Assembly (NCBI GenBank): GCA_025464095.1
Contig: JAODMF010000026.1
Span: forward strand, 1 to 52,341
Direction: 5' to 3'
Source of the DNA: Glaciihabitans sp.
GTDB lineage: Bacteria; Actinomycetota; Actinomycetes; Actinomycetales; Microbacteriaceae
Length of the DNA: 52,341 nt
Positions 1,986 through 23,218 of the stretch are shown one piece after another. The translations under genes were made by a program, and so were the position numbers. The first letter of the stretch is position 1. Each line of letters opens with the position of its first letter. Under the pieces are notes generated by a model that worked only from the letters and a program-made list of their open reading frames with translations, was not told the DNA's origin and did not search any database.

Positions 1986-3400
<1,415 letters not shown>

Positions 3401-3404
<4 letters not shown>

Positions 3405-4630
3405 CGACTGTTGTTCACCCCGGAGATTCGCTCTCCGGACGCCAAAGGCTTGTCTACGTACTGCTCCTCGGGGCGCTCACCGCGCTCGGCCCATTCACGG
3501 TCGACCTCTACCTGCCCGCGCTTCCCAACGTTGAGGCCGACCTCAACGTTCCCGCTGCCGCCGTGCAGCTCACCCTGTCCGCGACCATCATCGGGTTCGC
3601 GGTCGGGCAGCTCTTCGTCGGTCCGTGGAGCGACAAGGTCGGTCGCCGGCTGCCGCTGATCGTCGCCACCTCGGTGCACGTTCTCGCGAGCCTGGGCGTC
3701 GCGCTCGCTCCCGGGTACGAGTGGCTCGTGTTTTTCCGGCTGTTGCAGGGCGCGGGCGCCGCCGCCGGTGGTGTCGTCGCGCAGGCGACCGTGCGCGACC
3801 TGTTCGGCGGATACCCGCTGGTCAGGATGCTCTCCCGGCTCGCCCTGGTCTCCGGCCTCGCACCGGTGCTGGCTCCGCTGATCGGCTCCCAGTTGCTGCT
3901 GTTGATGCCGTGGCGGGGGATCTTTCTCGTGCTCGCCGGTTACGGGGTCGTCGTGCTCGCGGCATCCCTGCTATTCATTGTCGAGACGCTGCCGCCGGCG
4001 CGACGCGCGGAAATGGGCCACAGCACCACGCGACAGCGGTACCACGCGCTGTTCAGCGATCGGCGATTCATCGGTGTCGCAATCGTCGGTGGAATGACAT
4101 TCTCCGGCCTGTTTGCCTACCTCTCCTCGTCGCCGTTCCTGTTCCAACAGATCTACCAGCTGAACGCCCAGGGCTACGGGCTGCTGTTCGCGATCAACTC
4201 GATCGGAATCGTGATCGGCGTACAGACGAGCTCCCGGTTGGCCAAGTACTTCGGGCCGCAGTGGATCCTCGCGTTCTCCACGGCGGTGCTGTTCGTCACC
4301 TCGAGTCTGATCGTCATCTTCGACTCCGCTCATCTCGGGCTGTTCGGCATCCTCGTGCCCCTGTGGTTCTTCATCTGTGCGTGCGGGTTCGGCTTTCCCT
4401 GCATCCAGGTGCTCGCCCTCGCGAACCACGGCAAGGAAGCGGGCACGGCCGCATCTCTGCTGGGCGCCGTCAACTTCGGCCTCGCCGGCATCCTGTCGCC
4501 GCTCATCGGGCTGTTCGGCATCGTGAACGCGATTCCGATGGGCACGGCGATGGTCTGCACGTCCGCGGTCGGCATCCTCTCGCTCTGGATACTCGTGCGG
4601 CCGAAGACGGTGCCGCCCCTGTCGCGCTGA
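3401..4630 (+). CDS. MFS transporter, Bcr/CflA drug-efflux type
   Basis: This 409-residue, twelve-helix integral membrane protein belongs to the major facilitator superfamily. It has [20 protein letters not shown] in helix 1, typical of the Bcr/CflA (DHA1) exporters, and a motif A region [13 protein letters not shown] after helix 2. The start is taken as TTG 3401, whose last two bases form part of the GH1 stop (TTGA overlap); the reading frame is open further upstream but that part only overlaps the glucosidase. Its position suggests it could move a sugar or glucoside-derived product, whereas its family suggests drug or metabolite export. The sequence does not decide between them. Confidence 0.88.
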
Positions 4631-4679
4631 GCGTGCCGTAGCCCAGCTCCTGGCCATGGCTCCACCGTGGGCGAGCCGA

Positions 4680-4691
4680 TAGCGTTGGCCT
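4680..4691 (+). promoter_or_regulatory. Leaderless promoter -10 (saccharopine-dehydrogenase-family gene)
   Basis: TAGCGT at 4680-4685 lies 6 nt before ATG 4692, with no ribosome-binding site. This suggests a transcription unit separate from the MFS gene. Confidence 0.5.
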
Positions 4692-5963
4692 ATGAGAATC
4701 CTCCTGGTGGGTGCTGGCGGTGTCGGGGATGCGATCGCCAAGATTGCCGCTCGCCGCGACTTCTTCGAGACCATCGTGGTGAGCGACTACGACCTGGGCC
4801 GCGCGCAGAGAACCGTCGCCTGGATCGAGGCGAAGCACGGCCCGCAGAATGGGCGGTTCCTGTCGGCGACGATCGACGCATCCGACCCGGACAGCGTCAC
4901 GGCGGTGGCGATCGAGCACGGCGCCACCCACGTGATGAACGCCGTCGAGCCCAAGTTCGTACCGACGATTTTCGCGGGCGCGCTGGCCGCGGGTGCGGAC
5001 TACCTCGACATGGCGATGAGCCTGTCGGAGCCGCATCCGACCAATCCACACGAGGAGACCGGCGTCAAGCTCGGCGACGACCAGTTCGCCCAGGCACCCG
5101 ACTGGGAGACGGCCGGCCGCCTCGCACTGGTGGGCATGGGCGTGGAGCCGGGCCTCTCCGACGTGTTCGCGCGCTACGCCGCCGATCACCTGTTCAGTGA
5201 GATCGACGAACTGGGGACCCGGGATGGCGCGAACCTCGTTGTTCGCGATGAGGCCGGAAACGAAATCTTCGCACCGTCGTTCAGCATCTGGACGACCATC
5301 GAGGAGTGCCTCAACCCGCCCGTGATCTGGGAGAGGGATCGCGGCTGGTACACGACGGCGCCCTTCAGCGAGCCCGAGATCTTCACCTTTCCCGAGGGAA
5401 TCGGACCCGTGGAGTGCGTGAACGTCGAGCATGAGGAGGTCCTGCTCATGCCGCGGTGGGTTGACGCGAGGCGCGTGACCTTCAAGTACGGGCTCGGTGA
5501 CGAGTTCATCGGCATCCTGAAAACTCTCAACCAGCTCGGTCTGGACCAAACGGAGCCTGTGCGGGTGCGTTCGGCTGACGGCCCCGTGATGGTCGCGCCC
5601 CGCGATGTCGTCGCCGCCAGCCTGCCCGACCCGGCAACGCTCGGGCCTCGGATGACCGGCAAGACCTGCGCGGGACTCTGGGTCACCGGTACCGGCACCG
5701 ACGGCCGGCCGCGCGAGGTCTACCTCTACCACGTAAGCGATAACGAGTGGACGATGGCCGAGTACGAGGCGCAGTGCGTGGTGTGGCAGACCGCCCTCAA
5801 TCCGGTCATTGCGATGGAACTGATGTCTCGCGGCACCTGGACCGGCACGGGTGTTCTCGGACCGGAGGCGTTCGACGCCAAACCGTTCCTCGACCTGATG
5901 ACCGCGCCGATCGACGAGGGCGGCTACGGGCAGGGCTGGGGCCTTGAGGATCGTCTCGCCTAG
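4692..5963 (+). CDS. Saccharopine dehydrogenase family protein
   Basis: The 423-residue protein has an N-terminal Rossmann dinucleotide site (MRILLVGAGGVGDAIA) and the family-typical run leading to NAVEPKFV and GADYLDMAM, followed by the large C-terminal domain with GMGVEPGLSD. Family members include saccharopine dehydrogenase, lysine 6-dehydrogenase and carboxynorspermidine synthase, all NAD(P)-dependent enzymes on amino-acid-derived imines. The next gene, 33 bp downstream, is an amino-acid-racemase-like enzyme, which suggests the pair handles an amino acid or N-substituted amino acid. The exact reaction is not known. Confidence 0.82.
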   Translation: MRILLVGAGGVGDAIAKIAARRDFFETIVVSDYDLGRAQRTVAWIEAKHGPQNGRFLSATIDASDPDSVTAVAIEHGATHVMNAVEPKFVPTIFAGALAAGADYLDMAMSLSEPHPTNPHEETGVKLGDDQFAQAPDWETAGRLALVGMGVEPGLSDVFARYAADHLFSEIDELGTRDGANLVVRDEAGNEIFAPSFSIWTTIEECLNPPVIWERDRGWYTTAPFSEPEIFTFPEGIGPVECVNVEHEEVLLMPRWVDARRVTFKYGLGDEFIGILKTLNQLGLDQTEPVRVRSADGPVMVAPRDVVAASLPDPATLGPRMTGKTCAGLWVTGTGTDGRPREVYLYHVSDNEWTMAEYEAQCVVWQTALNPVIAMELMSRGTWTGTGVLGPEAFDAKPFLDLMTAPIDEGGYGQGWGLEDRLA

Positions 5964-10145: not shown

Positions 10146-12011
10146 ATGACGGATGCCGCAGCCCAGGTCGAAGCCGCCAAGAAGGCTCTTGCAGAGGCGC
10201 AAGCCGCTCTCGCCGCTGCCACGGCGGCGGCGGAATCCGAGCGTGCGGCGGCGACGTCTCCCGCCGCCACGACTCCCGCCACGTCCCCCGCCACAACTCC
10301 CGCCGCCACGACAACCCCCGCCACCCCAACCCCCACCCCCAACACCCCACCCCCCGCCCCGCTCACCCCAGCCCAGGTCGAAACCATCCGCGCGGGCTAC
10401 GGCTTCTCCGGGGCCGCGCTCGAGATGGGCGCTCTCGTCAACGGCTCCGCGCTGTCCGACGTGCCCATCCGCATCCCCATTGCCATGCTCAACCGGCACG
10501 GCCTCGTCGCCGGCGCGACGGGAACGGGCAAGACCCGCACCCTGCAGTTGCTCGCCGAGCAGTTATCCGCCGCCGGCGTGCCCGTGTTCGCCGCCGACAT
10601 GAAGGGCGACCTCAGCGGGGTCGCGACCCCGGGCACCGCCAGCGAGAAGCTCCTCAGCCGCACGCGGGGCATCGGCCAGGACTGGTCCCCCCGCGCCAGC
10701 CCCGCCGAGTACTACACGCTCGGCGGCCAGGGCGTGGGCGTGCCGATTCGCGCAACAGTGTCCGGCTTCGGCTCCCTGCTGCTGTCCAAAGTGCTCGGCC
10801 TGAACTCGACGCAGGAGTCGAGCCTCGGCCTGGTCTTTCACTACGCGGATCAGGCGGGCCTCGCCCTCGTCGACCTCTCCGACCTGCGCGCCGTTCTCAC
10901 CTACCTCGTCAGTGACTCCGGAAAGGGCGAGCTGGATGAGCTCGGCGGCCTGTCCAAGGCGACGGCCGGGGTCATCCTGCGCGAGTTGATCACGTTCGCC
11001 GACCAGGGAGCGGACGTGTTCTTCGGCGAACCTGAGTTCGACACCGACCACTTCCTCACCGTCGGCGCGGACGGGCGTGGAATCATCAGCCTGCTCGAAC
11101 TGCCCGGCGTGCAGGCGCGCCCCGCGCTATTCTCGACTTTCCTGATGTGGCTACTGGCCGACCTCTTCAACGACTTGCCCGAGGTCGGCGACCTGGACAA
11201 GCCGAAGCTCGTGTTCTTCTTCGATGAGGCGCACCTGTTGTTCCGCAACGCGTCCAGGGAATTCGTCGAGTCGATTACCCAGACCATTCGCCTGATCCGG
11301 TCGAAGGGCGTTGGCATTGTCTTTGTCACCCAGACCCCGAAGGATGTTCCTTCCGACGTTCTCGCCCAGATCGGCAGCCGGGTGCAGCACCAGCTCCGAG
11401 CCCACACTCCGGATGACGCGAGGGCCCTGAAATCGACGGTGTCCACCTATCCGACCTCGGGCTATGACCTCCAGCAGGTGCTCACCAACCTCGCGACCGG
11501 CGAGGCGATCGTCACGGTCATGAACGAGAACGGTGCCCCGACCCCGGTCGCCTGGACCCGCCTACGGGCGCCGCAGGGCTCGATGGGCGCCACGCCGGTC
11601 GACCAGGTGCAGGCGACCGTGAGCGCATCCCCGCTGATGGCGAGCTACGGAACGGTTGTCGACCCGGTCTCGGCGCGCGAGCTTCTCGCGGGCCGCATGA
11701 ACGCGGTCGCCGACGCGGATGTGGCACAGCAGCGGGCAGTCGACCAGGCGAGGCAGCAGGCGGCCGACCAGGCAAAACAGCAGGCAGTCGACCAGGCGAG
11801 GGCGCAGGCGGAACTCCAGCGCGACTATGAGAAGACCCAGCGCGAGCTTCAGCGCACCCGCACCCGCACCGAGGCCACGCGCACGACGTCGACCAGGCCC
11901 ACAGCGCGAAAACAGAAGACCGTGGCGGAGGAGATCCTCGGCTCGACGACGACCAAAACGGTCGTGCGCGAGGTGCTGCGCGGCATCTTCGGCACGCTGA
12001 GGAAGCGCTAG
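10146..12011 (+). CDS. HerA-like helicase/ATPase (DUF853)
   Basis: This 621-residue P-loop ATPase of the HerA/FtsK-like class resembles YjgR/DUF853 proteins. It has an Ala-rich N-terminal helix (1-35), a Pro/Ala/Thr low-complexity linker (36-75), Walker A GATGTGKT (123-130), DMKGDLSG after it, Walker B LVFFFDEAHLL (355 onward), an arginine-finger region with VFVTQTPKDVPSDVL, and a Gln/Arg-rich coiled-coil tail (about 520-590). Its function in the cell is not established; HerA relatives act as DNA-translocating rings in end resection. It stands alone, divergent from the SOS-boxed HNH gene. Confidence 0.85.
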   Translation: MTDAAAQVEAAKKALAEAQAALAAATAAAESERAAATSPAATTPATSPATTPAATTTPATPTPTPNTPPPAPLTPAQVETIRAGYGFSGAALEMGALVNGSALSDVPIRIPIAMLNRHGLVAGATGTGKTRTLQLLAEQLSAAGVPVFAADMKGDLSGVATPGTASEKLLSRTRGIGQDWSPRASPAEYYTLGGQGVGVPIRATVSGFGSLLLSKVLGLNSTQESSLGLVFHYADQAGLALVDLSDLRAVLTYLVSDSGKGELDELGGLSKATAGVILRELITFADQGADVFFGEPEFDTDHFLTVGADGRGIISLLELPGVQARPALFSTFLMWLLADLFNDLPEVGDLDKPKLVFFFDEAHLLFRNASREFVESITQTIRLIRSKGVGIVFVTQTPKDVPSDVLAQIGSRVQHQLRAHTPDDARALKSTVSTYPTSGYDLQQVLTNLATGEAIVTVMNENGAPTPVAWTRLRAPQGSMGATPVDQVQATVSASPLMASYGTVVDPVSARELLAGRMNAVADADVAQQRAVDQARQQAADQAKQQAVDQARAQAELQRDYEKTQRELQRTRTRTEATRTTSTRPTARKQKTVAEEILGSTTTKTVVREVLRGIFGTLRKR

Positions 12012-12717: not shown

Positions 12718-12722
12718 TTCGG

Positions 12723-12807
12723 CGGAGAATGGGGGATTCGAACCCCCGAGGGCTTGCACCCAACACGCTTTCCAAGCGTGCGCCATAGGCCACTAGGCGA
12801 ATTCTCC
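12723..12807 (-). tRNA. tRNA-Ser(GGA)
   Basis: 85 nt on the minus strand. A 7-bp acceptor stem (GGAGAAT/ATTCTCC) with discriminator G, T-arm GGGGGTTCGAATCCCCC, a long class II variable arm, and anticodon loop TTGGAAA give anticodon GGA (UCC codons). CCA is not encoded. Confidence 0.95.
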
Positions 12808-12884
12808 TGGCGGGCTCGGGATGGAGCCTTCCGAACCATAGAGAATCCTACCGGTAGATAACGGCTCCGGTCCTCCAGCCTGCC

Positions 12885-12896
12885 TAGGCTGGGATC
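12885..12896 (+). promoter_or_regulatory. Leaderless promoter -10 of pta
   Basis: TAGGCT at 12885-12890, 6 nt, then GTG 12897. Confidence 0.5.
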
Positions 12897-14993
12897 GTGC
12901 CGACACGTATTTACATCACATCCGCTGAGGGAAACACCGGCAAGTCGACGATCGCCCTGGGAGTTCTCGAAACCCTGGCACGCGGGGTGAAACGCGTGGG
13001 TGTGTTCCGGCCGATCGCACGCTCAACCACCGAGCGCGACTACGTTCTCGAACTGCTGCTCCTGCACGCAACCGCCGATCTCTCCTATGAGGAGTGCATC
13101 GGTGTCACCTACGACCGGGTGCACAGCGATCCGGATGCCGCACTGACCGACATCGTCGCCCGGTTCGCTGCCGTGGAGCAGGCTTGCGACGCCGTGGTGA
13201 TCCTCGGTTCGGACTTCACGGATGTCGGCAGCCCCACAGAGTTGTCGTACAACGCGCGAATCGCGGCCAACCTCGGCGCACCGGTCCTGCTCGTGCTCGG
13301 CGGCCGACGCACCGCCGGCGAGGGAGCACGAACCCCGGATGACCTGCGCCAGGTCGCGGAGCTGACCACGGCGGAACTGCGGCACGAGCATGCGGGACTG
13401 CTTGCGGTTGTGGTCAACCGCGCGGATCCGTCGCAATTGGAGCAGATCGCTGCCAGCGTCACGTCATCCTTCGAGAACGCGTCGCAGGCCGTTCCGGTGT
13501 GGTCGATCCCGGAGAACCCGTTTCTCGTCGCGCCGTCGGTGGCCGCCCTCCTCGAGGCGACCGACTCGCGGCTGCTCTCCGGCGACGAGTCGCTGCTCGA
13601 CCGCGAGGCCCTCGGGGTCGTCGTGGCAGCGATGTCGATGGAGAATGTGCTGCCTCGGCTGATCGAGGGAGCGGTCGTCGTCGTGCCGGGCGATCGCTCC
13701 GACGTGCTCGTTGGGACCCTGCTGGCGCACGCCTCCGAGACCTTCCCGTCGCTGTCCGGACTCATCCTCAACGGGGGATTCGAACTCGCCCCCGCCGTTG
13801 AGAAACTGATCTCCGGGTTGCGCTCGTCGCTGCCGATCGCCACGAACGACCTCGGCACGTTCGACACGGCCAGGCGCATCACCCAGACTCGCGGGCGCCT
13901 CGCCGCGGACAGCCCACGCAAGCTCGAACTAGCCCGAGCCCTCTTTGACGAACACGTGGATGCCGACGACCTGCTGCGCCGGCTGGAGGTGAACCCGTCC
14001 AGCGTCGTGACGCCGCTGATGTTCGAGTACCAGCTGCTCGAGCGAGCGCGTGAGCACTCGAAGCACATCGTGTTGCCCGAGGGCGGGGATGACCGGATTC
14101 TCCGCGCCGCACACAGTCTCCTCCAGCGCAAAGTGGCACGCCTGACCATCCTGGGTGAGGAGGCAACGGTGCGTGCCCGGGCGACCGAACTCGGCCTCGA
14201 CCTGAGCGAGGCATCCGTCATCAGCACCTTCGATCCGGAGCTGCGCCAGCGGTTCGCGGAGGAGTACGCCCGGGTTCGCGCCGCCAAGGGGATCACCCTC
14301 GGACAGGCCAGCGACACGGTCACCGACGGTTCCTACTTCGGCACGATGATGGTGCACCTCGGCCTCGCCGACGGCATGGTCTCCGGCGCCCAGCACACGA
14401 CGGCGAACACGATCCGCCCCGCGTTCGAGATCATCAAGACGAAGCCGGACGTGTCGGTCGTCTCGAGCGTGTTCCTCATGGCTCTCGCCGACCGCGTCCT
14501 TGTCTACGGCGACTGTGCGGTCGTCCCCGACCCGACCGCGGAGCAGTTGGCGGATATCGCGATCTCCGCCTCCCGCACGGCTACGCAGTTCGGGATCGAG
14601 CCGCGCGTCGCCATGCTCAGCTACTCGACCGGCGAGTCGGGAAGCGGCGCGGATGTGGACAAGGTGCGCACCGCGACGGCTCTCGTACGCTCCCGTGCCC
14701 CCGAGCTGCTCGTGGAGGGGCCCATCCAGTACGACGCGGCAGCGGATGCCACGGTCGCCGCCGCGAAGATGCCCGATTCTGCGGTGGCCGGCCGCGCCAC
14801 CGTGTTCATCTTTCCCGACCTGAACACCGGCAACAACACCTATAAGGCGGTGCAGCGAAGCTCCGGGGCACTTGCCATCGGTCCTGTCCTGCAGGGCCTC
14901 AACAAGCCGATCAACGACCTCTCCCGGGGAGCGCTGGTTCGCGACATTGTGAACACTGTGGCGATCACCGCGATCCAGGCGGCCGCATCGTGA
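12897..14993 (+). CDS. pta: Phosphate acetyltransferase
   Basis: Interconverts acetyl-CoA and acetyl phosphate. The 698-residue length is that of the long, three-domain Pta. The N-terminal P-loop-like domain begins ITSAEGNTGKST, a DRTGG-type middle domain follows, and the C-terminal catalytic PTA domain (from about residue 370) shows VLPEGGDDRIL, SYSTGESGSGAD and FPDLNTGNNTYK. GTG start, leaderless. Its stop overlaps the ackA start by 4 bp, giving the usual pta-ackA operon for acetate overflow or activation through acetyl phosphate. Confidence 0.96.
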   Translation: MPTRIYITSAEGNTGKSTIALGVLETLARGVKRVGVFRPIARSTTERDYVLELLLLHATADLSYEECIGVTYDRVHSDPDAALTDIVARFAAVEQACDAVVILGSDFTDVGSPTELSYNARIAANLGAPVLLVLGGRRTAGEGARTPDDLRQVAELTTAELRHEHAGLLAVVVNRADPSQLEQIAASVTSSFENASQAVPVWSIPENPFLVAPSVAALLEATDSRLLSGDESLLDREALGVVVAAMSMENVLPRLIEGAVVVVPGDRSDVLVGTLLAHASETFPSLSGLILNGGFELAPAVEKLISGLRSSLPIATNDLGTFDTARRITQTRGRLAADSPRKLELARALFDEHVDADDLLRRLEVNPSSVVTPLMFEYQLLERAREHSKHIVLPEGGDDRILRAAHSLLQRKVARLTILGEEATVRARATELGLDLSEASVISTFDPELRQRFAEEYARVRAAKGITLGQASDTVTDGSYFGTMMVHLGLADGMVSGAQHTTANTIRPAFEIIKTKPDVSVVSSVFLMALADRVLVYGDCAVVPDPTAEQLADIAISASRTATQFGIEPRVAMLSYSTGESGSGADVDKVRTATALVRSRAPELLVEGPIQYDAAADATVAAAKMPDSAVAGRATVFIFPDLNTGNNTYKAVQRSSGALAIGPVLQGLNKPINDLSRGALVRDIVNTVAITAIQAAAS

Positions 14994-16111
14994 CCTCCGT
15001 CTTTGTCGTCAACAGCGGCTCATCCTCGATCAAGTACCAGCTGGTGGATCTCGAGACCGAGCAGGCGGTCGTGAGCGGACTCGTCGAGCGCATCGGCGAG
15101 AAGGGATCCGACGTCGCCGACCACGCGGCCGGGATGCGGCGGGTGCTCGCCGATCTCGGTTCCGAGCATTCGATCGACGCCGTCGGGCACCGGGTCGTGC
15201 ACGGCGGCTCGGACTTCACCGCCGCGACCCTCATCACGGATCGGGTCGAGCAACAGGTCGACGAGCTCTCCAGCCTCGCGCCGCTGCACAACCCGGCGAA
15301 CCTGCTCGGCATCCGGGCAGCACGCGAGGCGCTGCCGAACGTGCCGCACGTGGCCGTGTTCGACACCGCTTTTCACCAGACCCTGCCGCCCGACGCGTAC
15401 ACCTACGCCATCGACACCGCCGTCGCCGCGAAGCACCGCGTGCGGCGCTACGGCTTTCACGGCACGAGCCACAAGTTCGTCTCCGAGCAGGCCGCGATCC
15501 TGCTCGGCCGGCCGCTCGAGCAGCTCAAGATCATCGTGCTTCACCTCGGCAACGGGGCATCCGTAGCGGCGATCGACGGGGGAGTCTCAGTCGAGACGAG
15601 CATGGGCATGACGCCGCTTGAGGGTCTGGTCATGGGCACCCGTTCCGGCGATATCGACGCGGCTGTCCTCATCCACCTGCACCGCCAGGCCGGGCTCGAC
15701 TTCGACGACCTCGACGCCATGCTCAACCGCGAGAGCGGACTGCTCGGGCTCACCGGCAGCGGTGACATGCGCGACGTGCAGGAGCGCGCATCGAACGGGG
15801 ATGCCGCGGCCGAGGCCGCGCTCGGTGTGTATCGGCACCGCATCCGCCGGTACCTGGGCGCGTACCTCGTGCACCTCGGCGGCCTGGATGCGGTGGTATT
15901 CACGGCAGGCGTTGGCGAAAACAATTCCCTGCTGCGACGGCGCACGCTCGCCGGGCTCGAGTTTCTCGGTATCTCCGTCGACCCCGATCGCAATGAGGTG
16001 CCCTCGAAGCGCCCGCGGTTCATCTCGCCCGAAGGATCTCCTGTCGCGGTGTTGGTGGTTCCAACCAATGAGGAGCTGGAGATCGCGCGGCAGACCGCAG
16101 CACTGCTCTGA
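14990..16111 (+). CDS. ackA: Acetate kinase
   Basis: The 373-residue ASKHA-fold kinase makes ATP and acetate from acetyl phosphate and ADP, or the reverse. It has VNSGSSSIKY at the N terminus, GHRVVHGG, the second signature YGFHGTSHK, and GVGENN near the C terminus. The GTG overlaps the pta stop (GTGA), indicating translational coupling. Slightly shorter than the roughly 400 residues common elsewhere, but all motifs are present. Confidence 0.96.
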   Translation: MTSVFVVNSGSSSIKYQLVDLETEQAVVSGLVERIGEKGSDVADHAAGMRRVLADLGSEHSIDAVGHRVVHGGSDFTAATLITDRVEQQVDELSSLAPLHNPANLLGIRAAREALPNVPHVAVFDTAFHQTLPPDAYTYAIDTAVAAKHRVRRYGFHGTSHKFVSEQAAILLGRPLEQLKIIVLHLGNGASVAAIDGGVSVETSMGMTPLEGLVMGTRSGDIDAAVLIHLHRQAGLDFDDLDAMLNRESGLLGLTGSGDMRDVQERASNGDAAAEAALGVYRHRIRRYLGAYLVHLGGLDAVVFTAGVGENNSLLRRRTLAGLEFLGISVDPDRNEVPSKRPRFISPEGSPVAVLVVPTNEELEIARQTAALL

Positions 16112-16120
16112 CTGCGAAAG

Positions 16121-16657
16121 CTAGGCTTGCGCCCTGCGGCGCCCCAGCTGCGTCGTCAGCCATCCGGTCGCCAGCAGAACCATGGCGGCGAGCCAGCCGA
16201 ACGCCGCAAGGGCAGTGAACGCGTCGATGCGTCGTTCCGTCGGAACGAGCGACTGGCCCGCGGTGACTACGGAGTCCCCCGCCGCGATGGACACCGTCGC
16301 GAACCGCTGGCCGGATGCCGACCGCCAGGTCACGTTGTCCTCGCCCGTGCGGCGTGCGGTATCCAGCACCCCCTTGGGGAGCGACGCGAGCGCGCCATTC
16401 TCATAGCCGGAGCCGACGGAGCCGGCCGGGCCGACCACAACGACCCAGGTCGCGAAACTGTCTTTCAGCTGGACCGGCTGAAGGCCGTCCACCGTCTTGG
16501 TTGAGCCGGTGCGGAGCTCGCTGGCCACCTGGCTTGCCAGCCGCCCGGGCTCGTCGTTGGCTGACAGGCGTGCCTCCTGCTGCGCGAGAACGTACGCGGT
16601 GCCAACGAGCACCGAGACGACCAGCGCCGCGGTGATCCAGGGGATGTGAAGTCTCAT
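16121..16657 (-). CDS. Membrane-anchored hypothetical protein
   Basis: The 178-residue protein has an N-terminal membrane anchor (about 5-25), an extracytoplasmic domain of about 115 residues, and a second membrane helix (about 147-167) followed by a basic tail GRRRAQA. This is the layout of a sensor-like extracellular domain without a cytoplasmic output. No family is recognised. On the minus strand TACGGT lies 6 nt before ATG 16657 (16664-16669), so the gene is probably leaderless. It converges on ackA with a 9-bp gap. Confidence 0.6.
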   Translation of the reverse strand: MRLHIPWITAALVVSVLVGTAYVLAQQEARLSANDEPGRLASQVASELRTGSTKTVDGLQPVQLKDSFATWVVVVGPAGSVGSGYENGALASLPKGVLDTARRTGEDNVTWRSASGQRFATVSIAAGDSVVTAGQSLVPTERRIDAFTALAAFGWLAAMVLLATGWLTTQLGRRRAQA

Positions 16658-16669
16658 CTCTTTACCGTA
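16658..16669 (-). promoter_or_regulatory. Leaderless promoter -10 (membrane protein)
   Basis: TACGGT on the minus strand, 6 nt upstream of ATG 16657. Confidence 0.45.
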
Positions 16670-16729
16670 GAAACCCCCGGCGCGGATTGCCTCATTCCGA
16701 AGGATGATTTCCGTCGGCTAAACTGTTGG

Positions 16730-16821
16730 GTGGCTCCTCGCGTGGCGCCATCCAGGCCAACTCCCCCAGGGCGGAAACGCAGCAAGGGTAACCGGGCTCT
16801 GGCGGGTGCGCGAGGGGTCAC
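16730..16821 (+). ncRNA. ffs: Signal recognition particle RNA (small bacterial type)
   Basis: About 92 nt. The conserved SRP apical domain AGGGCGGAAACGCAGCAAGG lies at 16768-16787, and the outer stem GTGGCTCCTCGCG (16730 onward) pairs with CGCGAGGGGTCAC (16809-16821). TAAACT at 16719-16724 is a good -10 placing the start near 16730. Ends are estimated from the stem. In many actinobacteria ffs directly precedes dnaX; here the two are separated by the duplicated SipW cassette. Confidence 0.92.
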
Positions 16822-16875
16822 TTCCATTTATATGACGGTGTGCATGACGGTGTTCGCGCATCGGCGCAGGACGCG

Positions 16876-17328
16876 TCAGGGAACCGAACAGTTCGTGAGG
16901 AGCCCCGCCGTGATGTTGTAGGTGCCCGTGGGCCCGGGAACGGATGTCCAGCCGCCTGGGCCGGTCGCGACGACGCTGAACTTGAACGTGCCCGTGGTGA
17001 GCAGACCGCCCGGGGAGGGGCTCGCCGTCAGCAACGTCGTGCTGCCGCTCGCAACGACAGTGCCGGTGCCGCTGATCAGCGACCACCGGTAGCCGCTCAC
17101 CGTCAGGCCTCCGGCGACGGGCGCAACCCAGCTGAACGTCGGGCTCGAAAACAGGCCTTGTGAGCAGGTGAGCGTTCGAGGGGGGTTCACGATGCCCGCG
17201 GTGAACGACCCGGTGCCCGTCTCCGCTTTCGTCCAGCTCGCATCCGTCCAGGCCGCGGTTGTTCCCCCGGCCAGTGCTGCTACGAGTACCGCTGCCAGTG
17301 ACAGCCCAACTCTTTGGCGGCGCCTCAT
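16876..17328 (-). CDS. Secreted Fn3-like protein with SipW-type signal (cassette 2, gene 4)
   Basis: The 150-residue protein has a basic start (MRRRQR) and hydrophobic stretch (residues 8-25), then WTDASWTKAETGTGSFTAG, echoing the motif after the signal in the two TasA-like proteins of the cassette. The rest is a single beta-sandwich resembling a fibronectin type III domain (FSWVAPVAGGLTVSGYRWSL...FKFSVVATGPGGW), with cysteines near its two ends that could form a disulphide. Its ATG overlaps the stop of the signal peptidase gene by 4 bp. It is probably an accessory component of the secreted structure. Paralogue: 20011-20463. Confidence 0.72.
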   Translation of the reverse strand: MRRRQRVGLSLAAVLVAALAGGTTAAWTDASWTKAETGTGSFTAGIVNPPRTLTCSQGLFSSPTFSWVAPVAGGLTVSGYRWSLISGTGTVVASGSTTLLTASPSPGGLLTTGTFKFSVVATGPGGWTSVPGPTGTYNITAGLLTNCSVP

Positions 17329-18551
17329 GCGGGGTCATCCCGCCGACGACGCGCGATGACGGATGCGACACCGGAGAACCCGAGCCCGACAAGAAGACTC
17401 GCGAGCGCGAACAGGAGGGGCGCCATCGGGTCGGTACCGGTGAACCCCAGTACACCCGAACCGCCACCGGGAGGCCCCGAAGTCTGGCTGTCGCCCATGC
17501 CGGTAGCGGTGATCCGCACGTCCGACGTTCCAGCCCGCGTTGAAGCGGCATTGGGCACGGATGCCGAAACGAGAATCCAGCGCTGGTCGGCTGTTGCCAT
17601 GGTTCCGAGAGGATGCGCGACTCCGCCGAGCCCAGCCGCCGGCTGCGGCGACAGGAGTGTCCGCTGACCGCTCGAGCAGGTGGACCCAACCCAGCGAACG
17701 TCGCACGACTCGACGCCCAGGGTCAGGCCAATGGGCGATTCGGCGAGAGGCCCGTCCGCCAGAAGAGTGAGTGTGATCGTTCCCGGTGCGGACGCCTGCG
17801 CGCTCACGCCGACCTGCCAGAGCGCCGGAATGCCGGGGGTCAGCTGAGCCATGCCGACGGTGTCCCCGATAGACACGAGCCGGATGACTTCGCCCTGAAT
17901 GATCTGTTCCGTGGGCTCGGCCCAGGCGCTCTGCGCGGGAAGTGCCACCCACCCTGCTGCCAGTCCGGAGGCGATGAGCACGACAATGATCGTCGAAGCA
18001 TGGTCCGCAACACGGCTCCGCTTGCGAGGTGTGCGCGGACCTCCTCCAGATGGCCAGAACGCCCAGGTCACGAGCGCTGAGACGCCCAACGCGATCGCGC
18101 CCGCTACAAGCGGATTGCTCAACCACACGATGAAATAGGCGACCCCTGGCGCGGACCAGAAGACCACACTCGCACTGTGCACCGTGTACGGCACCGGGTC
18201 ATCCGTGGGATTGGCGTCACCGCGGAGCGTCAGAATGCGCGTGCCAGCCGTGTCGCCGGGTTTGACGGATGTCACACGATGCGAGATCGGCAGCTGGCCG
18301 GTTCGCGAGACCGTTACGACCTCACCCACCTTCACCTCGCTCGCCGGCACCTGACGCACGAGCGCGACGGAGCCCTGGGGGATTGTCGGCGACATCGAGC
18401 CGGTCTTGAACATGACGAGCGAGATGTGGAACACCACCGCGAGGATGACCAAAACGATGCAGATCGCACCGCCAGCCGCCGCGAGGGTCAGCAGAATGCT
18501 GCCGATTCTCGCGGGCATCCCGCGTCGCGCCTTCGTAGAGTTGGCCATCAT
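17325..18551 (-). CDS. SipW-type signal peptidase I fused to anchored ectodomain (cassette 2, gene 3)
   Basis: 408 residues. The first membrane helix (about 25-47) is followed by the catalytic serine in TGSMSPTIPQG (S52) and a histidine in PISHRVTSV (H91), with D112 in GDAN. This Ser-His pattern is that of SipW/ER-archaeal signal peptidases, not the Ser-Lys bacterial type. Unusually, after two more membrane segments there is an extracytoplasmic domain of about 160 residues, then LGFTGTD, a hydrophobic helix and RRRRDD, a layout like an LPXTG/LAXTG sorting signal. It should mature the adjacent SipW-type substrates. AGGAC precedes the tandem ATGs (18551/18548). Confidence 0.82.
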   Translation of the reverse strand: MMANSTKARRGMPARIGSILLTLAAAGGAICIVLVILAVVFHISLVMFKTGSMSPTIPQGSVALVRQVPASEVKVGEVVTVSRTGQLPISHRVTSVKPGDTAGTRILTLRGDANPTDDPVPYTVHSASVVFWSAPGVAYFIVWLSNPLVAGAIALGVSALVTWAFWPSGGGPRTPRKRSRVADHASTIIVVLIASGLAAGWVALPAQSAWAEPTEQIIQGEVIRLVSIGDTVGMAQLTPGIPALWQVGVSAQASAPGTITLTLLADGPLAESPIGLTLGVESCDVRWVGSTCSSGQRTLLSPQPAAGLGGVAHPLGTMATADQRWILVSASVPNAASTRAGTSDVRITATGMGDSQTSGPPGGGSGVLGFTGTDPMAPLLFALASLLVGLGFSGVASVIARRRRDDPA

Positions 18552-18555
18552 CGTC

Positions 18556-19176
18556 CTAATTTGAGATCGTCGTGAACTGCCAGGTCGCGGTTGCGTTGGT
18601 GCCCTGCAGGGAATTGGCCGCGCCAGACACCACGCGAACGTCGAAACAGAAGCGCAAGGCGCCACCGGCCGCGGTGACCGGCGAAGCGACTATGGTTCCG
18701 GGGACGGTGGCCACAGCGATGTAGCTGCTCGCGCTCCCGGCCACGTAGACCGGCGATCCGGAAAATGCAGCGAGTGCGCAGACCGTCGTGGTTGCGATGC
18801 GGATGGCGCGGTATTCGAGCGAGGGCGCCAGCGTTCCAGACGCGGTTGCACTGGTCAGCCGGACGGTTCCGCCCACCGTCGTTGCCGACGTGGTCCGGAT
18901 GTCGAGAAAGGCGTAGGTGGACACGAGGGGAGCCACTGCAGTGGCTGCGAATGCCAGGGTGGCACCGGGTGAGCTGGGATTCGGCGCGAAGGTTGTGCCG
19001 TCCGCGCTCGACTCCGTCGCGAAGGTGCTTGCGGTGAAGGAATTCCCGGCGCCTTCCGAATCCGTCCAGGAGGCGAGGGTGAAGACCGCCCCCACGCCGA
19101 GCGCGAGCCCGGCAGCGAGCACGGCGCGGAGGCGTACTAAAGCCCCGCGCCGTGCTCCCTGAACCTCTCGGAACAT
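18556..19176 (-). CDS. SipW-dependent secreted protein, TasA/camelysin-like (cassette 2, gene 2)
   Basis: The 206-residue protein has a twin-basic N terminus, a hydrophobic core and VFTLASWTDSEGAGNSF, the consensus SipW-type cleavage region (Trp/Phe-Thr-Asp-Ser-Glu). The mature part is Ser/Thr/Ala-rich and predicted beta-sandwich, as in TasA and camelysin biofilm or surface proteins. It ends FCFDVRVVSGAANSLQGTNATATWQF. The signal peptidase gene starts 4 bp downstream. It aligns end to end, without gaps, with the 21739-22359 paralogue. Confidence 0.78.
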   Translation of the reverse strand: MFREVQGARRGALVRLRAVLAAGLALGVGAVFTLASWTDSEGAGNSFTASTFATESSADGTTFAPNPSSPGATLAFAATAVAPLVSTYAFLDIRTTSATTVGGTVRLTSATASGTLAPSLEYRAIRIATTTVCALAAFSGSPVYVAGSASSYIAVATVPGTIVASPVTAAGGALRFCFDVRVVSGAANSLQGTNATATWQFTTISN

Positions 19177-19206
19177 GATGTGTCCGCTAGTCGGTACGGT
19201 CGATGA

Positions 19207-19824
19207 CTACAAGGACGTTGCAGTAATACCCCACGTGCCCGTAGCAGTGCTGCCCTGGACCAGCCCCGCGCCTGCTTTCACCTGGATGCACAGGAACACG
19301 GACGCGCCCGGGCCACCAGCCGTGCCGCGCGCCAGGGCGAACGCCGTTGCGCCGGTGGATGCCGTCAGTGCCGTTCCCGCGGGCACGAGCGTGGCCGTGC
19401 CGGTCGCGGCAGGCGTGCATCCCGCGACGCTCGCCACCTGGATGATGCCGTAGGTGAAGTTGGCGGCGCCTGCTCCGGTGCCGGCCGCACTCGTCACCAG
19501 GGCGGTCGCGTTGTTGGTGGTCGTCGCATCCAGTCGGAGCACGAACGGGGCAGCCACCACATCATTCGGGCTCATGCTGTTGAAGCCCGTCGAGAAGGTG
19601 ACAGCAGCCGCGCTGCCCGCGCTCGGATGGTCGGAGAACGTGGTGCCGTCGACGCTTCCCTGGAGATTGAAGCTGCCGGCGGTGAATGTACCTGTCGCAA
19701 ATTCCGAGTCGTTCCAGGTCGCGAGTGTTACTGCGGCACCGATCCCCAGTACCAGACCACCTGCGAGAATCGCGAGGACTTTCCTCTTGGTGCGACGAGT
19801 CGAGTTAAGTTTTGTGGCGCTCAT
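19207..19824 (-). CDS. SipW-dependent secreted protein, TasA-like (cassette 2, gene 1)
   Basis: The 205-residue protein has a basic start with RRTKRK, a hydrophobic stretch and the SipW-type motif TLATWNDSEFATGTFTAGSF. The mature part is Ala/Thr/Gly-rich beta-structure with a single late cysteine pair region (AGCTPAATG, FLCIQVKAGAG) and C terminus TGTWGITATSL. It aligns without gaps to the first gene of cassette 1 (22388-23005), with long identical stretches around the signal. Probably the major fibre or surface subunit. First gene of its operon, with a GAGGGA ribosome-binding site. Confidence 0.78.
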   Translation of the reverse strand: MSATKLNSTRRTKRKVLAILAGGLVLGIGAAVTLATWNDSEFATGTFTAGSFNLQGSVDGTTFSDHPSAGSAAAVTFSTGFNSMSPNDVVAAPFVLRLDATTTNNATALVTSAAGTGAGAANFTYGIIQVASVAGCTPAATGTATLVPAGTALTASTGATAFALARGTAGGPGASVFLCIQVKAGAGLVQGSTATGTWGITATSL

Positions 19825-19927
19825 AATTGTCCCTCGGGTAAGGCGAGGCGACCCAGCAAGAGCGCCGAAGACGACCTCGATAATGGCCCGCGCAGAAAAC
19901 GGGGTAAGCGCGCGCGGTTGCCACATG

Positions 19928-19956
19928 GTATTACCGGATTGAATTTCCCTCGGTTA
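19928..19956 (-). promoter_or_regulatory. Putative promoter of SipW cassette 2
   Basis: On the minus strand TAACCG (19951-19956) is followed after 17 nt by TAATAC (19928-19933), giving a leader of about 97 nt before ATG 19824. The same arrangement is found in front of cassette 1 with a leader of almost equal length. The -35-like box is not a standard TTGACA and could be read by an alternative sigma factor or be an activator site. Confidence 0.4.
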
Positions 19957-20010
19957 CATTTTGAGTCGAATTCGTTGGTGTGTCGGCGGCGCTCGCCCGC
20001 TCCCCGCTCG

Positions 20011-20463
20011 CTACGGAACAGTGCAGGTAAAGGCCGGGCCGATCGCGACCGTGTAGGTGCCGGTCGGACCGGGCACGGACGTCCAGCCACCGGGACCCGT
20101 CGAAACCACACTGAAGGTGTAGGTGCCGGTCGCGAGGGTGCCATCTGGCGCGGGGGTCGCTGTCGGCGAGGTGACATCCCCTCTGGCAACGACGGCGCTC
20201 GTGTTATCCGTCAGAGCCCAGTGGTAGCTGCTCACCGGCAGCCCGCCGGCCGCTGGTTCCACCCAGTCGAAGACCGGACCCGACTGTGCGGACTGTGTGC
20301 AGGTGAGCGTGCGGGGAGGGCCCACGACTCCCGCCGTGAACGACCCGGTGCCCGTCTCCGCGGTCGTCCAACTCGCATCCGTCGACGCGGCGCTCGTCAC
20401 GGCCACCAGTCCGGCGCAGAGTGCCGCCGCCAGCGAGAGTCCGACCGTTCGTCGATGTCTCAT
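20011..20463 (-). CDS. Secreted Fn3-like protein with SipW-type signal (cassette 1, gene 4)
   Basis: A 150-residue paralogue of 16876-17328, same length. It has a hydrophobic signal (residues 8-26), the post-signal motif STDASWTTAETGTGSFTAG, then an Fn3-like sandwich with VEPAAGGLPVSSYHWAL and FSVVSTGPGGWTSVPGPTGTY, the latter nearly identical to the other copy. Terminal cysteines (LTCTQ and TCTVP) are conserved. It overlaps the preceding signal peptidase gene by 4 bp. Confidence 0.72.
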   Translation of the reverse strand: MRHRRTVGLSLAAALCAGLVAVTSAASTDASWTTAETGTGSFTAGVVGPPRTLTCTQSAQSGPVFDWVEPAAGGLPVSSYHWALTDNTSAVVARGDVTSPTATPAPDGTLATGTYTFSVVSTGPGGWTSVPGPTGTYTVAIGPAFTCTVP

Positions 20464-21734
20464 GCCGGTTCCTCAGGTGCACCGCGGCGCCTGGCGATGG
20501 ATGCCGCACCCGCGAATCCGAGACCGGCAAGAAGGCTCCCGAGCGCGAACAGGAGCGGGCGTGCCAGGTTGGTACCCGTGGCCGCGAGGAACCCGTCGCT
20601 GCTGCCGCTCCAGTTGCCGCTGCTGCCGTCGCCGCTCCCGCTGCCGCCATGGCTATTGCCCGACCCCGCACTCTGGCTGTCGCCCATCCCGGTGGCGGTG
20701 ATGCGCACTTCCGCCGTGCCGGCTCGCACCGATGCTGCGTCCGGCACGAGCGCCGAGACGAGGATCCAGCGCTGGTCAGCGGTGGTGATGGTCCCGAGTG
20801 CCTGGGCAGCTCCGCCGAGTGCAACGGCCGGTTGCGGTGCGATGAGCGTGCGCTGGCCGCTCGCGCAGGTGTTGCCCACCCAGCGCACATCGCACCCCTC
20901 GGCACCGACGGTCAATCCAGCGGGCGACTCGGCGAGAGGCCCCCCGGCCGCCAGGCTGAGTGTGATCGTGCCCGGCTCCGGGGCATTTGCACTCACGCCC
21001 ACCTGCCAGAGCGTCGGGATGCCGGGCGTGAGGTCGGCCATTTCGAGGGCGTCCCCGATCGACACGAGCCTGATCACGCTGCCCTGGGTGACCTGTTCGA
21101 CCTGGGCCGCCCGTGCGCTCTGGGGAACGACCATCCACGATGAAGCAGCTCCGGCCAGTAGCAGCAGAACGACGGTCGTGGGGTAGCGCTTGATGGATCG
21201 GCGGCCCCTGCGCGGACGCGAATCACCAGCCGCTGGCCAGAACGCCCAGGTCACGAGGGCCCCGACCCCGAGCGCGACTATCCCGAGAACGATCGGGTTG
21301 CTGAACCACACGACGACGTAGGCGAGTCCGGGCGCTGACCACACGACCAGCCGCACGCTCTGCACGGTGTACGGCAGGGGATCATCCACGGGGTTGGCAT
21401 CGCCCCGGAGGGTAATGATGCGCGCGCTTCCCGTGCCGTCCGGCCGAACGGATGTCACGCGGTGCGAGATCGGCAACTCGCCGGGTCGCGAGACGGTCAC
21501 GACCTCACCGACCTTCACCTCATCCGCTGGAATCTCTCGTACGAGAGCCAGGGACCCCTGCGGGATCGTCGGCGACATCGAGCCGGTCTTGAACAGCACG
21601 ATCGTGATGTGGAACACCACCGCGAGGAGAACAAGTACGAGACAGATCGCGCCCCCGATGGCCGCCAGCGTGAGCAGCGCGCTGCCGAGTCTCGCGGGCA
21701 TCCCGCGTCGGGCCCTGGTCGGGTCGGTCATCAT
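20460..21734 (-). CDS. SipW-type signal peptidase I fused to anchored ectodomain (cassette 1, gene 3)
   Basis: A 424-residue paralogue of 17325-18551. Catalytic S52 is in TGSMSPTIPQG and H91 in PISHRVTSV, both at the same positions as in the other copy. The ectodomain (about 210-360) is followed by a Ser/Gly/Asn-rich linker absent from the other copy, then LAATGTN, a hydrophobic helix and ARRRG. LAATG fits the class E sortase consensus LAXTG used by actinobacteria, so the processed ectodomain might even be attached to the cell wall. AGGAC precedes tandem ATGs exactly as in the paralogue. Confidence 0.83.
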   Translation of the reverse strand: MMTDPTRARRGMPARLGSALLTLAAIGGAICLVLVLLAVVFHITIVLFKTGSMSPTIPQGSLALVREIPADEVKVGEVVTVSRPGELPISHRVTSVRPDGTGSARIITLRGDANPVDDPLPYTVQSVRLVVWSAPGLAYVVVWFSNPIVLGIVALGVGALVTWAFWPAAGDSRPRRGRRSIKRYPTTVVLLLLAGAASSWMVVPQSARAAQVEQVTQGSVIRLVSIGDALEMADLTPGIPTLWQVGVSANAPEPGTITLSLAAGGPLAESPAGLTVGAEGCDVRWVGNTCASGQRTLIAPQPAVALGGAAQALGTITTADQRWILVSALVPDAASVRAGTAEVRITATGMGDSQSAGSGNSHGGSGSGDGSSGNWSGSSDGFLAATGTNLARPLLFALGSLLAGLGFAGAASIARRRGAPEEPA

Positions 21735-21738
21735 CGTC

Positions 21739-22359
21739 CTAGGTCGCTGTCGTGGTGAATTGCCAGGTCACGGTTCCGTCCGTGCCCTGCAGGGAACTGT
21801 CCGCATCCGCCGCCACCCGCACGTCGAAACAGAAACGCAGGCTGCCGCCGGCCGAGGCGATCGGCGAGGCGACGATGCCCGCGGGTGTCGTGCTCGCCGC
21901 GACGTACGTGCTCGCATCCCCCGCCACGTAGGTCGGCGACCCGGAGAAGGCCGCGGGCTCGCAGGTCGTCGTCGTTGGTATTCGGATGGCGCGGTACTCC
22001 AGCGACGGTGCCAGTGGCCCCGACGTGGTCGTGCTGGTCAGCCGGACTACTCCGTCGATCGTCGTCGCCGCGGTAGTCCGGATGTCGAGGAACGCGTACG
22101 TGGAAACGAGCGGACCGAGGGCGGTGGCACCGAACGCAAGACTCGCGCCGGGCGAGCCGGAGTTGGTCGCGAAGCTGGTGCCATCAGAACTCGACTGCGT
22201 CGCGAAGATGCCAGCGCCAAAGGAACTGGTGGCCACTTCCGAATCCGTCCATGAGGCCAGGGTGAACGCGGCACCGACGCCGAGCGCGAGACCCGCAGCG
22301 AGCACGGCGCGGAGGCGTATGGAAGCCCCGCGCCGTGCCCTCCGAGTCCGCTGGAACAT
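21739..22359 (-). CDS. SipW-dependent secreted protein, TasA/camelysin-like (cassette 1, gene 2)
   Basis: 206 residues, matching 18556-19176 residue for residue in length. The signal and cleavage region reads AAFTLASWTDSEVATSSF, and the mature part is Ser/Thr-rich with conserved STYAFLDIRTT, PSLEYRAIRI and LRFCFDVRV. ATG 22359 is chosen because it aligns with the paralogue start; the frame is open further upstream into the preceding gene. Confidence 0.78.
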   Translation of the reverse strand: MFQRTRRARRGASIRLRAVLAAGLALGVGAAFTLASWTDSEVATSSFGAGIFATQSSSDGTSFATNSGSPGASLAFGATALGPLVSTYAFLDIRTTAATTIDGVVRLTSTTTSGPLAPSLEYRAIRIPTTTTCEPAAFSGSPTYVAGDASTYVAASTTPAGIVASPIASAGGSLRFCFDVRVAADADSSLQGTDGTVTWQFTTTAT

Positions 22360-22387
22360 GAAGCGACAGTCGGTCAGCCGCGGACGA

Positions 22388-23005
22388 CTACAGCGAGGTC
22401 GCCGTGATTCCCCAGGTACCCGTCGCCGTCGTGCCCTGGACGAGTCCAGCATCCGCCGCCACCTGGATGCACAGGTAAACCGATGCGCCCGGCGCCCCAG
22501 CTGTGCCGTTGGCAAGGGTGAAGGATGCTGCGCCGGTGGTGTCGGTCAGGGCTGTGCCGGCCGGCACGATGGTTGCCGTACCGGTGGCGGTGGGCGTGCA
22601 TTCCGCGACGCTTGCGACCTGAACGATGCCGTAGGTGAAGTCGGTCACGCCGCTGCCGGTGCCATCAGCGCTCGTTACGAGCGCGGTCGCTCCGCTCGTA
22701 GCCGTGCCATCCAGGCGCAGCACGTACGGCGCAGCCACCACGTCGTTCGGGCTCATGTCGCTGAAACCGGTCGAGAAGGTGGCGGCGGCCGCGCTGCCAG
22801 AGCTTGCGTGGTCGGCGAAGGTGGTTCCGTCGGTGCTGCCCTGCAGGTTGAAGCTTCCGGCGCTGAATGTGCCGGTCGCAAACTCGGAGTCGTTCCAGGT
22901 CGCGAGCGTTACCGCGGCACCGATGCCGAGAACCAGCCCGCCCGCGAGAATCGCGAGGATTTTCTTCTTCGTGCGACGTGACGTATCGATTTGAGCCGTG
23001 CTCAT
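22388..23005 (-). CDS. SipW-dependent secreted protein, TasA-like (cassette 1, gene 1)
   Basis: A 205-residue paralogue of 19207-19824. RRTKKK precedes the hydrophobic core, then TLATWNDSEFATGTFSAGSF. The C-terminal TGTWGITATSL is identical to the other copy. Ribosome-binding site GGGGGA lies 5 nt before the ATG. It opens cassette 1, divergent from dnaX, with about 225 bp between the start codons. Confidence 0.78.
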   Translation of the reverse strand: MSTAQIDTSRRTKKKILAILAGGLVLGIGAAVTLATWNDSEFATGTFSAGSFNLQGSTDGTTFADHASSGSAAAATFSTGFSDMSPNDVVAAPYVLRLDGTATSGATALVTSADGTGSGVTDFTYGIVQVASVAECTPTATGTATIVPAGTALTDTTGAASFTLANGTAGAPGASVYLCIQVAADAGLVQGTTATGTWGITATSL

Positions 23006-23107
23006 AGTGTCCCCCTGATCAAAACGGGGCGAATCGGCACAGCGCCGAAATTCTGCCCCGGGTAATGAGCGCGCCTGAAATGTGGTTAACGAGCGCGCTT
23101 CGCGAGA

Positions 23108-23137
23108 ATGCTACCCCCGAACTATCCTTTGCGGTTA
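23108..23137 (-). promoter_or_regulatory. Putative promoter of SipW cassette 1
   Basis: On the minus strand TAACCG (23132-23137) is followed after 18 nt by TAGCAT (23108-23113), with a leader of about 96 nt before ATG 23005. The leader shares TTCGGCGCT-like and GGGACA-like blocks with that of cassette 2. A second GTTAACC lies inside the leader near 23083-23090. Confidence 0.4.
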
Positions 23138-23218
23138 ACTTTTCGCCACATCCGGTCGATCACACGCTTGGCGCTCCACAGTGATGGCCGCCGCCGGACG
23201 GGTGTGGGCGGCGGGCAG

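Follow-up and report, generated by a model that had tools for sequence, protein, structure and literature searches.

The window analysed here, a stretch of 52,341 nucleotides from the genome of Glaciihabitans sp. (contig JAODMF010000026.1), contains two tandem four-gene cassettes, both on the minus strand, which together span positions 16876-23005 and to which an earlier note had drawn attention. Each cassette has the gene order A-B-S-F. Cassette 1 is made up of A1 (22388-23005), 205 amino acids (aa) long, a predicted fibre subunit with a SipW-type signal and a proposed mature start at W37 (22897); B1 (21739-22359, 206 aa), a homologue of A that also carries a SipW-type signal; S1 (20460-21734, 424 aa), in which a single frame runs from a SipW-type signal peptidase through an internal signal peptide and an Ig-like domain to a sorting signal; and F1 (20011-20463, 150 aa), a secreted protein that bears an A/B-like N-terminal segment on an unrelated body. 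Cassette 2 contains the second copies of these genes: A2 (19207-19824, 205 aa), B2 (18556-19176, 206 aa), the second SipW-anchor fusion S2 (17325-18551, 408 aa) and F2 (16876-17328, 150 aa). In each cassette a gap of 4 bp separates B from S, and S and F overlap by 4 bp. The earlier description of two units on the minus strand, with the same gene order, the same spacing and equal lengths for three of the four genes (205, 206 and 150 residues), was accurate.

The earlier note took S for a SipW-type signal peptidase, which holds for the core of the protein but overlooks what follows in the same frame, namely a predicted internal signal peptide, a beta-sandwich domain of Ig-like fold and a sortase-type tail. 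S1 and S2 match the signal peptidase model TIGR02228 with 57.0 and 59.3 bits (cut-off 51.85). Coverage by SipW models stops at about residue 160 of S, and approximately the last 240 residues of each of the two proteins are not signal peptidase. The score of S1 and S2 against the Bacillus SipW equivalog NF046067 (23.1 and 25.0 bits) is below its cut-off of 190. In S1, the SipW core and two membrane helices occupy residues 1-170 (21225-21734, this and the following features being on the minus strand). The predicted internal signal peptide (residues 185-209, 21108-21182) ends with A207-x-A209 (21108-21116), the predicted cut being after A209. It is followed by the Ig-like anchor domain (residues 210-360, 20655-21107), whose AlphaFold2 model has a pLDDT (predicted local distance difference test) of 93.5 and gives the fold matches discussed below, and by the sorting signal (20463-20588), which consists of LAATG (20574-20588), a hydrophobic stretch and an Arg tail. 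In S2, the alignment places the end of the internal signal peptide, A209-x-A211, at 17919-17927 and the Ig-like anchor domain, about 75% identical to that of S1, at 17475-17918, while the sorting motif is read from the sequence as LGFTG (17436-17450). The Ser/Gly stretch ahead of the C-terminal motif is longer in S1 than in S2.

The spread of this arrangement was assessed by a scan of named bacterial genomes, in which the best 80 of 247 relatives were kept as loci. The SipW core and the anchor domain lie in one open frame in 70 of the 80 loci, as in both window copies; these 72 fused S sequences are the rows used below for conservation (one strain supplies both L059 and L060, with identical sequences, and the frame of L038 runs across an unknown base). 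Carriers include Microbacteriaceae, Micrococcaceae, Brevibacteriaceae, Micromonosporaceae, Nakamurellaceae and Propionibacteriaceae. Strains with a single cassette include Paeniglutamicibacter sulfureus and Micromonospora chalcea DSM 43026. In L093, L095, L097, L103, L110 and L111, the anchor has a gene and a signal peptide of its own, the gene overlapping or adjoining that of SipW, and the genome G009 likewise has a split form, in which an anchor of 221 aa directly after SipW has its own signal peptide and ends with LPSTG. L090 and L104, where the anchor is in another frame, maybe through assembly frame errors, were excluded from the split count, and L107 ends before the anchor region. L108 (Labedella endophytica, 10400-11082) is a natural anchor-less cassette: SipW is followed directly by an F-type gene and then by ackA, without an anchor domain. 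Upstream of SipW there are two A/B-type open reading frames (ORFs) in 75 of the 80 loci and one in the other 5. This gene order is old. An F-type gene, called in relatives from a start close to the stop of S, an aromatic motif and two Cys, lies 3' of S in 52 of the 73 loci that have this stretch on the contig, with an overlap of exactly 4 bp in 38.

The 72 rows bear on how S is likely to be processed. The Ser of TGSM and the His of (T/S)HR, the catalytic pair that marks SipW-type (archaeal/endoplasmic reticulum-like) signal peptidases, are present in 72/72. An A-x-A motif follows the third helix in 66 of the 72 rows, a lenient count in that the motif lies inside the helix in a few of them; control windows gave it in 417/1465 cases (28%) in the anchor domain and 195/1357 (14%) in the core. 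LxxTG occurs within the last 75 residues in 62 rows (LP 34, LA 20, LS 3, LG 2, LV 2, LI 1). Alignment of eight fused proteins shows no variation (8/8) at either Ala of A-x-A (A207 and A209 in S1) or at the L and G of LxxTG (L383 and G387 in S1). The loop that precedes the internal helix is positively charged, K+R versus D+E being 7 versus 1 in S1 and 5 versus 0 in S2. By its pattern, the third hydrophobic helix of S, which ends with A-x-A, is an internal signal peptide. S has the features of a sortase substrate, namely a signal peptide before the domain and LxxTG with a hydrophobic stretch and a positive tail.

Alternatively, the third helix could simply hold S in the membrane. S would then stay uncut, with its Ig-like domain fixed on the outside of the peptidase to gather A, B and F, and sortase might even attach the enzyme to the wall. 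Selection would favour a fusion if the domain were a permanent partner of the peptidase, and the fusion is indeed kept in 70 of the 80 loci. Against this, identity between S1 and S2 drops to 34% in the loop and helix, compared with 75% in the core and about 74% in the anchor domain, and A-x-A is kept regardless, as it is in 66/72 rows. Furthermore, G009 and the six split loci encode this domain apart from SipW, as a secreted protein that has a signal peptide of its own, and fusion to a wall-linked tail would keep the enzyme from its work. An uncut S is unlikely in my view, and release of the Ig-like domain from the peptidase is the reading retained here.

What the Ig-like domain might be was approached by sequence and by predicted structure. 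No Pfam family scores over the cut-off with the anchor half of S, and the alignment search gave stray weak matches only; a protein database search with this half gave four matches among the 7998 candidates sharing most words with it, two of which are the window's own. In the alignment, the invariant features of the domain are two Cys and the fold core. Foldseek ranks TasA (8aur) first by E-value, tied with three unrelated chains, and the best VIA-align matches are domains of LPXTG adhesins, e.g. FnBPA and ClfA. That the domain is a further TasA copy was considered and is not supported by profile comparison (probability 0.8%; 1.2% against A and 36% against B). The VIA-align matches, together with the split genes, which show that the domain can be independent, would rather suit an adhesin or ligand-binding surface protein that is encoded on the same mRNA and has no part in fibre assembly. 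However, within the operon the domain sits after SipW and before F and shares the reading frame of the fibre peptidase; what is invariant in it belongs to the fold core and the two Cys, with no evident ligand site; and Foldseek also brings up TasA at the top of its tied matches. I consider an adhesin distinctly unlikely, and the domain will be referred to as a putative fibre anchor.

The presumed cargo of the peptidase supplies a possible link to fibres. A1, B1, A2 and B2 match the SipW-type signal model TIGR04088 with 32.1, 27, 34.2 and 29.2 bits, respectively (cut-off 19), while F1 and F2 match no NCBIfam model, TIGR04088 included. B is homologous to A according to profile comparison (99.9%, E 1e-35). 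The AlphaFold2 model of the mature part of A1 has a pLDDT of 90.4, the N-terminal segment being a low-confidence end. For this model, Foldseek ranks the TasA fibre 8aur first (E 2.3e-4), as the sole match of 671 at E <= 0.001, with FimG pilins coming next, and the top of the list consists mostly of strand-exchange fibres (TasA, FimG, CfaB, Csu and the Sulfolobus 0406 filament). A and B match neither the Pfam TasA/camelysin families nor, by sequence, any TasA chain of the PDB, and no Pfam family scores over the cut-off with A, B or F, F giving a weak PKD-like match below it. A and B are moderately TasA-like by predicted fold and, by the tests made, outside the TasA sequence family; the earlier label of TasA-like may stand in the first sense, for the predicted fold of A, but not in the second. 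The suggestion that the N-terminal motifs of A, B and F are related is supported by profile comparison, in which F shares an N-terminal segment of 17 columns with A and with B (against A, probability 83, E 8.9e-6). In A1 this segment, WND.E.ATGTF.AG, runs from W37 to residue 53 (22847-22897, minus strand) and is the proposed donor strand. It sits where TasA has its donor strand, which is the N-terminus of TasA according to the available portions of the fibre reports (PMC9674648, PMC10151520).

Conversely, A and B might not build fibres and could be secreted as monomers that act at the surface or in signalling, in keeping with the lack of a TasA-family sequence match and with a fold match that is moderate. 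Two observations argue against it: strand-exchange fibres dominate the top Foldseek list for A, and SipW-linked cargo, as far as the accessible text of the reports goes, forms filaments in both B. subtilis (PMC9674648, PMC10151520) and C. perfringens (PMC7395162). Monomeric A and B appear very improbable, and A and B are treated below as candidate fibre subunits.

The rest of the window's genome, which is 83.2% complete, was searched for the enzymes that such a system would use. All four TIGR04088 matches of the genome lie within the two cassettes, as do both SipW-core matches obtained with S1 (4/4 and 2/2), in agreement with the earlier view of self-contained units of SipW and cargo. One LepB scores over the cut-off elsewhere in the genome. 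There is one sortase, of class E (227.1 bits, cut-off 160), and class E sortases are described, in the part of the source available, as using LAXTG (PMC5148588). Among 199 Microbacteriaceae genomes, the anchor domain was found in 37, belonging to 25 of 85 genera (E <= 1e-6). A class E sortase is present in 36 of these 37 carriers versus 141 of the 162 non-carriers (counted by eye from two lists), so that co-occurrence of the two is uninformative. One carrier, G082, has the anchor domain and no class E sortase match, though its genome is 99-100% complete.

In the reading proposed, each cassette is predicted to encode a TasA-like fibre system attached to the wall, with SipW fused in one frame to the likely anchor of the fibre and the two probably cut apart after export; I give this an even chance of being right. 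A, B and F would be exported by Sec and have their signals removed by SipW, as suggested by the TIGR04088 signal in A and B and by linkage. S would cross the membrane four times, the third helix acting as an internal signal peptide that ends with A-x-A. A cut made at A-x-A by a signal peptidase (the housekeeping LepB, or else SipW acting on its own chain) would free the Ig-like domain, which could then be joined through its LAxTG/LPxTG-like signal to peptidoglycan by the class E sortase of the genome. To judge from fold and position, mature A and B would polymerise as TasA does, the N-terminal W-x-D-x-E...G-x-F-x-A-G strand of each subunit going into its neighbour. The most speculative steps concern the ends of the fibre: F, a donor-like strand on an unrelated body, might start or cap it like TapA, and the sortase-held domain might take or hold the other end. 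The fusion would keep enzyme and anchor at a 1:1 ratio at the export site, and the whole cassette would then have been duplicated in tandem in the window's lineage. Gene order, fusion, conserved motifs, the split form, the sortase, LepB and the confinement of SipW-type cargo to these cassettes are observed; every cleavage, wall anchoring, the fibres themselves and the roles of F and of the anchor domain are points that I infer.

A more specific version, which I hold to be rather unlikely, is that SipW processes itself. It would cut its own fibre anchor off at the internal A-x-A and so provide one sortase-held anchor per peptidase at the site of the fibre, F and the anchor domain being the two end pieces, F giving a strand without a groove and the anchor domain tying the chain to the wall. 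If true, a self-processing S would represent a sortase-coupled and peptidase-coupled assembly route for TasA-like fibres.

The two cassettes have diverged; the earlier note had argued against a recent duplication. Identity between the copies is 80% for A (163/205), 71% for B (147/206), 69% for S (279/405 aligned) and 64% for F (96/150). A tree of 82 SipW cores pairs S1 with S2 as sisters (support 100/99), with a path distance of 0.39 between them and of 0.93 to the next row. The dN/dS values between copies (NG86) are approximately 0.13 for A, 0.27 for B, 0.27 for F and 0.28 for S, indicating that both copies are under purifying selection. Two anchor-domain matches were found in the window's genome alone among the 37 carriers, up to 18 candidates having been scored per genome, and there is no second full S within the flanks (at most 10 kb) of the 80 named loci. 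Single-copy status is accordingly a statement about 199 genomes of one family and 80 loci with flanks of <=10 kb, and the window's genome is the sole representative of its genus in the set compared. Since S1 and S2 are sisters and no other of the 199 genomes gave two copies, the tandem duplication is lineage-specific, and it is old enough for the copies to have diverged. The regions upstream of the two cassettes (19825-20010 and 23006-23180) align with a local score of 25 versus 17 for the best of 500 shuffles, and both contain TTACCCGRGG near the start of A; control common to both cassettes is possible. In L094 (Arthrobacter crystallopoietes, 2820-5338), two further, weaker SipW cores lie near the main cassette. 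One of these extra cores runs in frame into an F-like domain and would be another peptidase-cargo fusion.

The genomic site was thought to result from insertion of the cassettes between ffs and dnaX, taken to be usually adjacent. The order in the window (12721-16825) is tRNA-Ser, pta, ackA, an ORF at 16121-16657 and ffs, followed by the cassettes; ffs, the small signal recognition particle RNA, is at 16729-16825 on the plus strand (Rfam RF00169, 62 bits). Adjacency of ffs and dnaX is only partly supported: the distance is <=150 bp in 13 of the 38 relatives giving both genes, but in only 4 of the 23 within the same family. The interval is variable in the family, ranging from <50 bp to about 68 kb on one contig (G001). 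Origin by insertion between ffs and dnaX is rejected in view of six of the 80 loci (L033, L050, L062, L067, L075 and L108), which have one cassette, oriented as in the window and flanked by ackA and dnaX, with ffs elsewhere. Only one flank of this ackA-dnaX site is visible in L036, L090 and L101. In L033, L062, L075, L090, L101 and L108, that is in six of eight scanned loci, those where ffs turned up, ffs is beyond pta. It follows that the place of ffs differs while the position of the cassette is old: the differing item in the window is ffs, which lies between ackA and the cassette. The ackA-dnaX site is not universal: G003, G017, G019 and G021, four full-length relatives, carry the cassette either well away from dnaX or on a different contig. 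In L101, a homologue of ORF 16121 (15661-16053) adjoins ffs, which suggests that pta and ackA shifted position with respect to ffs and this ORF. In G009 (G009:C1:1064747-1065903), dnaX was matched as two pieces with an inner TGA, either an assembly error or a broken gene.

Several elements of the proposal are already known: SipW-linked fibre operons in Bacillus and Clostridium, class E sortases with LAXTG substrates, and the NCBIfam signal and peptidase families. The comparisons that follow reflect the available portions of the papers cited. The cassettes resemble the B. subtilis tapA-sipW-tasA operon (PMC9674648, PMC10151520) in having a dedicated SipW with linked cargo, here of TasA-like predicted fold, and an accessory protein with a donor-strand-like N-terminus on a different body, TapA there and F here. 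In contrast to the cassettes, SipW is not fused to an anchor in that operon and no sortase signal is reported in those portions, where TapA is 'thought to be involved in anchoring' TasA-type fibres to the cell (PMC9674648, PMC10151520). The cassettes also differ by their two homologous subunits and by the fact that A and B lack known TasA sequence models. The C. perfringens sipW-bsaABCRSD operon (PMC7395162) likewise encodes several secreted proteins, among them a SipW-dependent, polymer-forming one, but its polymerisation is independent of the nearby sortase, BsaA is without LPXTG and, in the text available, the peptidase is not described as fused. The CapP-TasA-CalY filaments of B. cereus (PMC13082335) similarly involve two co-assembling subunits and an accessory protein; this system is called sortase-independent by its authors in the portion at hand, whereas a sortase-type tail is encoded in the operon described here. 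The actinobacterial substrates of class E sortases (PMC5148588) share the LAXTG-type tail (LAATG in S1), and the genome has one class E sortase, but the substrate domain is here encoded inside a signal peptidase. Finally, A1, B1, A2 and B2 (TIGR04088) and S1 and S2 (TIGR02228) score over the curated cut-offs of these NCBIfam models, which describe the signal segment and the peptidase core only and not the anchor half of S. In the literature searched, which comprised titles and abstract openings, most subscription journals being outside its scope, nothing was found that describes a SipW joined in frame with a sortase-anchored domain.

Such systems can be sought with a marker, a SipW core that shares its frame with an internal signal peptide and an LxxTG tail, and the tandem duplicate of the window is natural material for testing the specialisation of copies. 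If the proposal is true, a large actinobacterial group anchors its fibres by means of a peptidase and a sortase-held anchor that are encoded as one chain.

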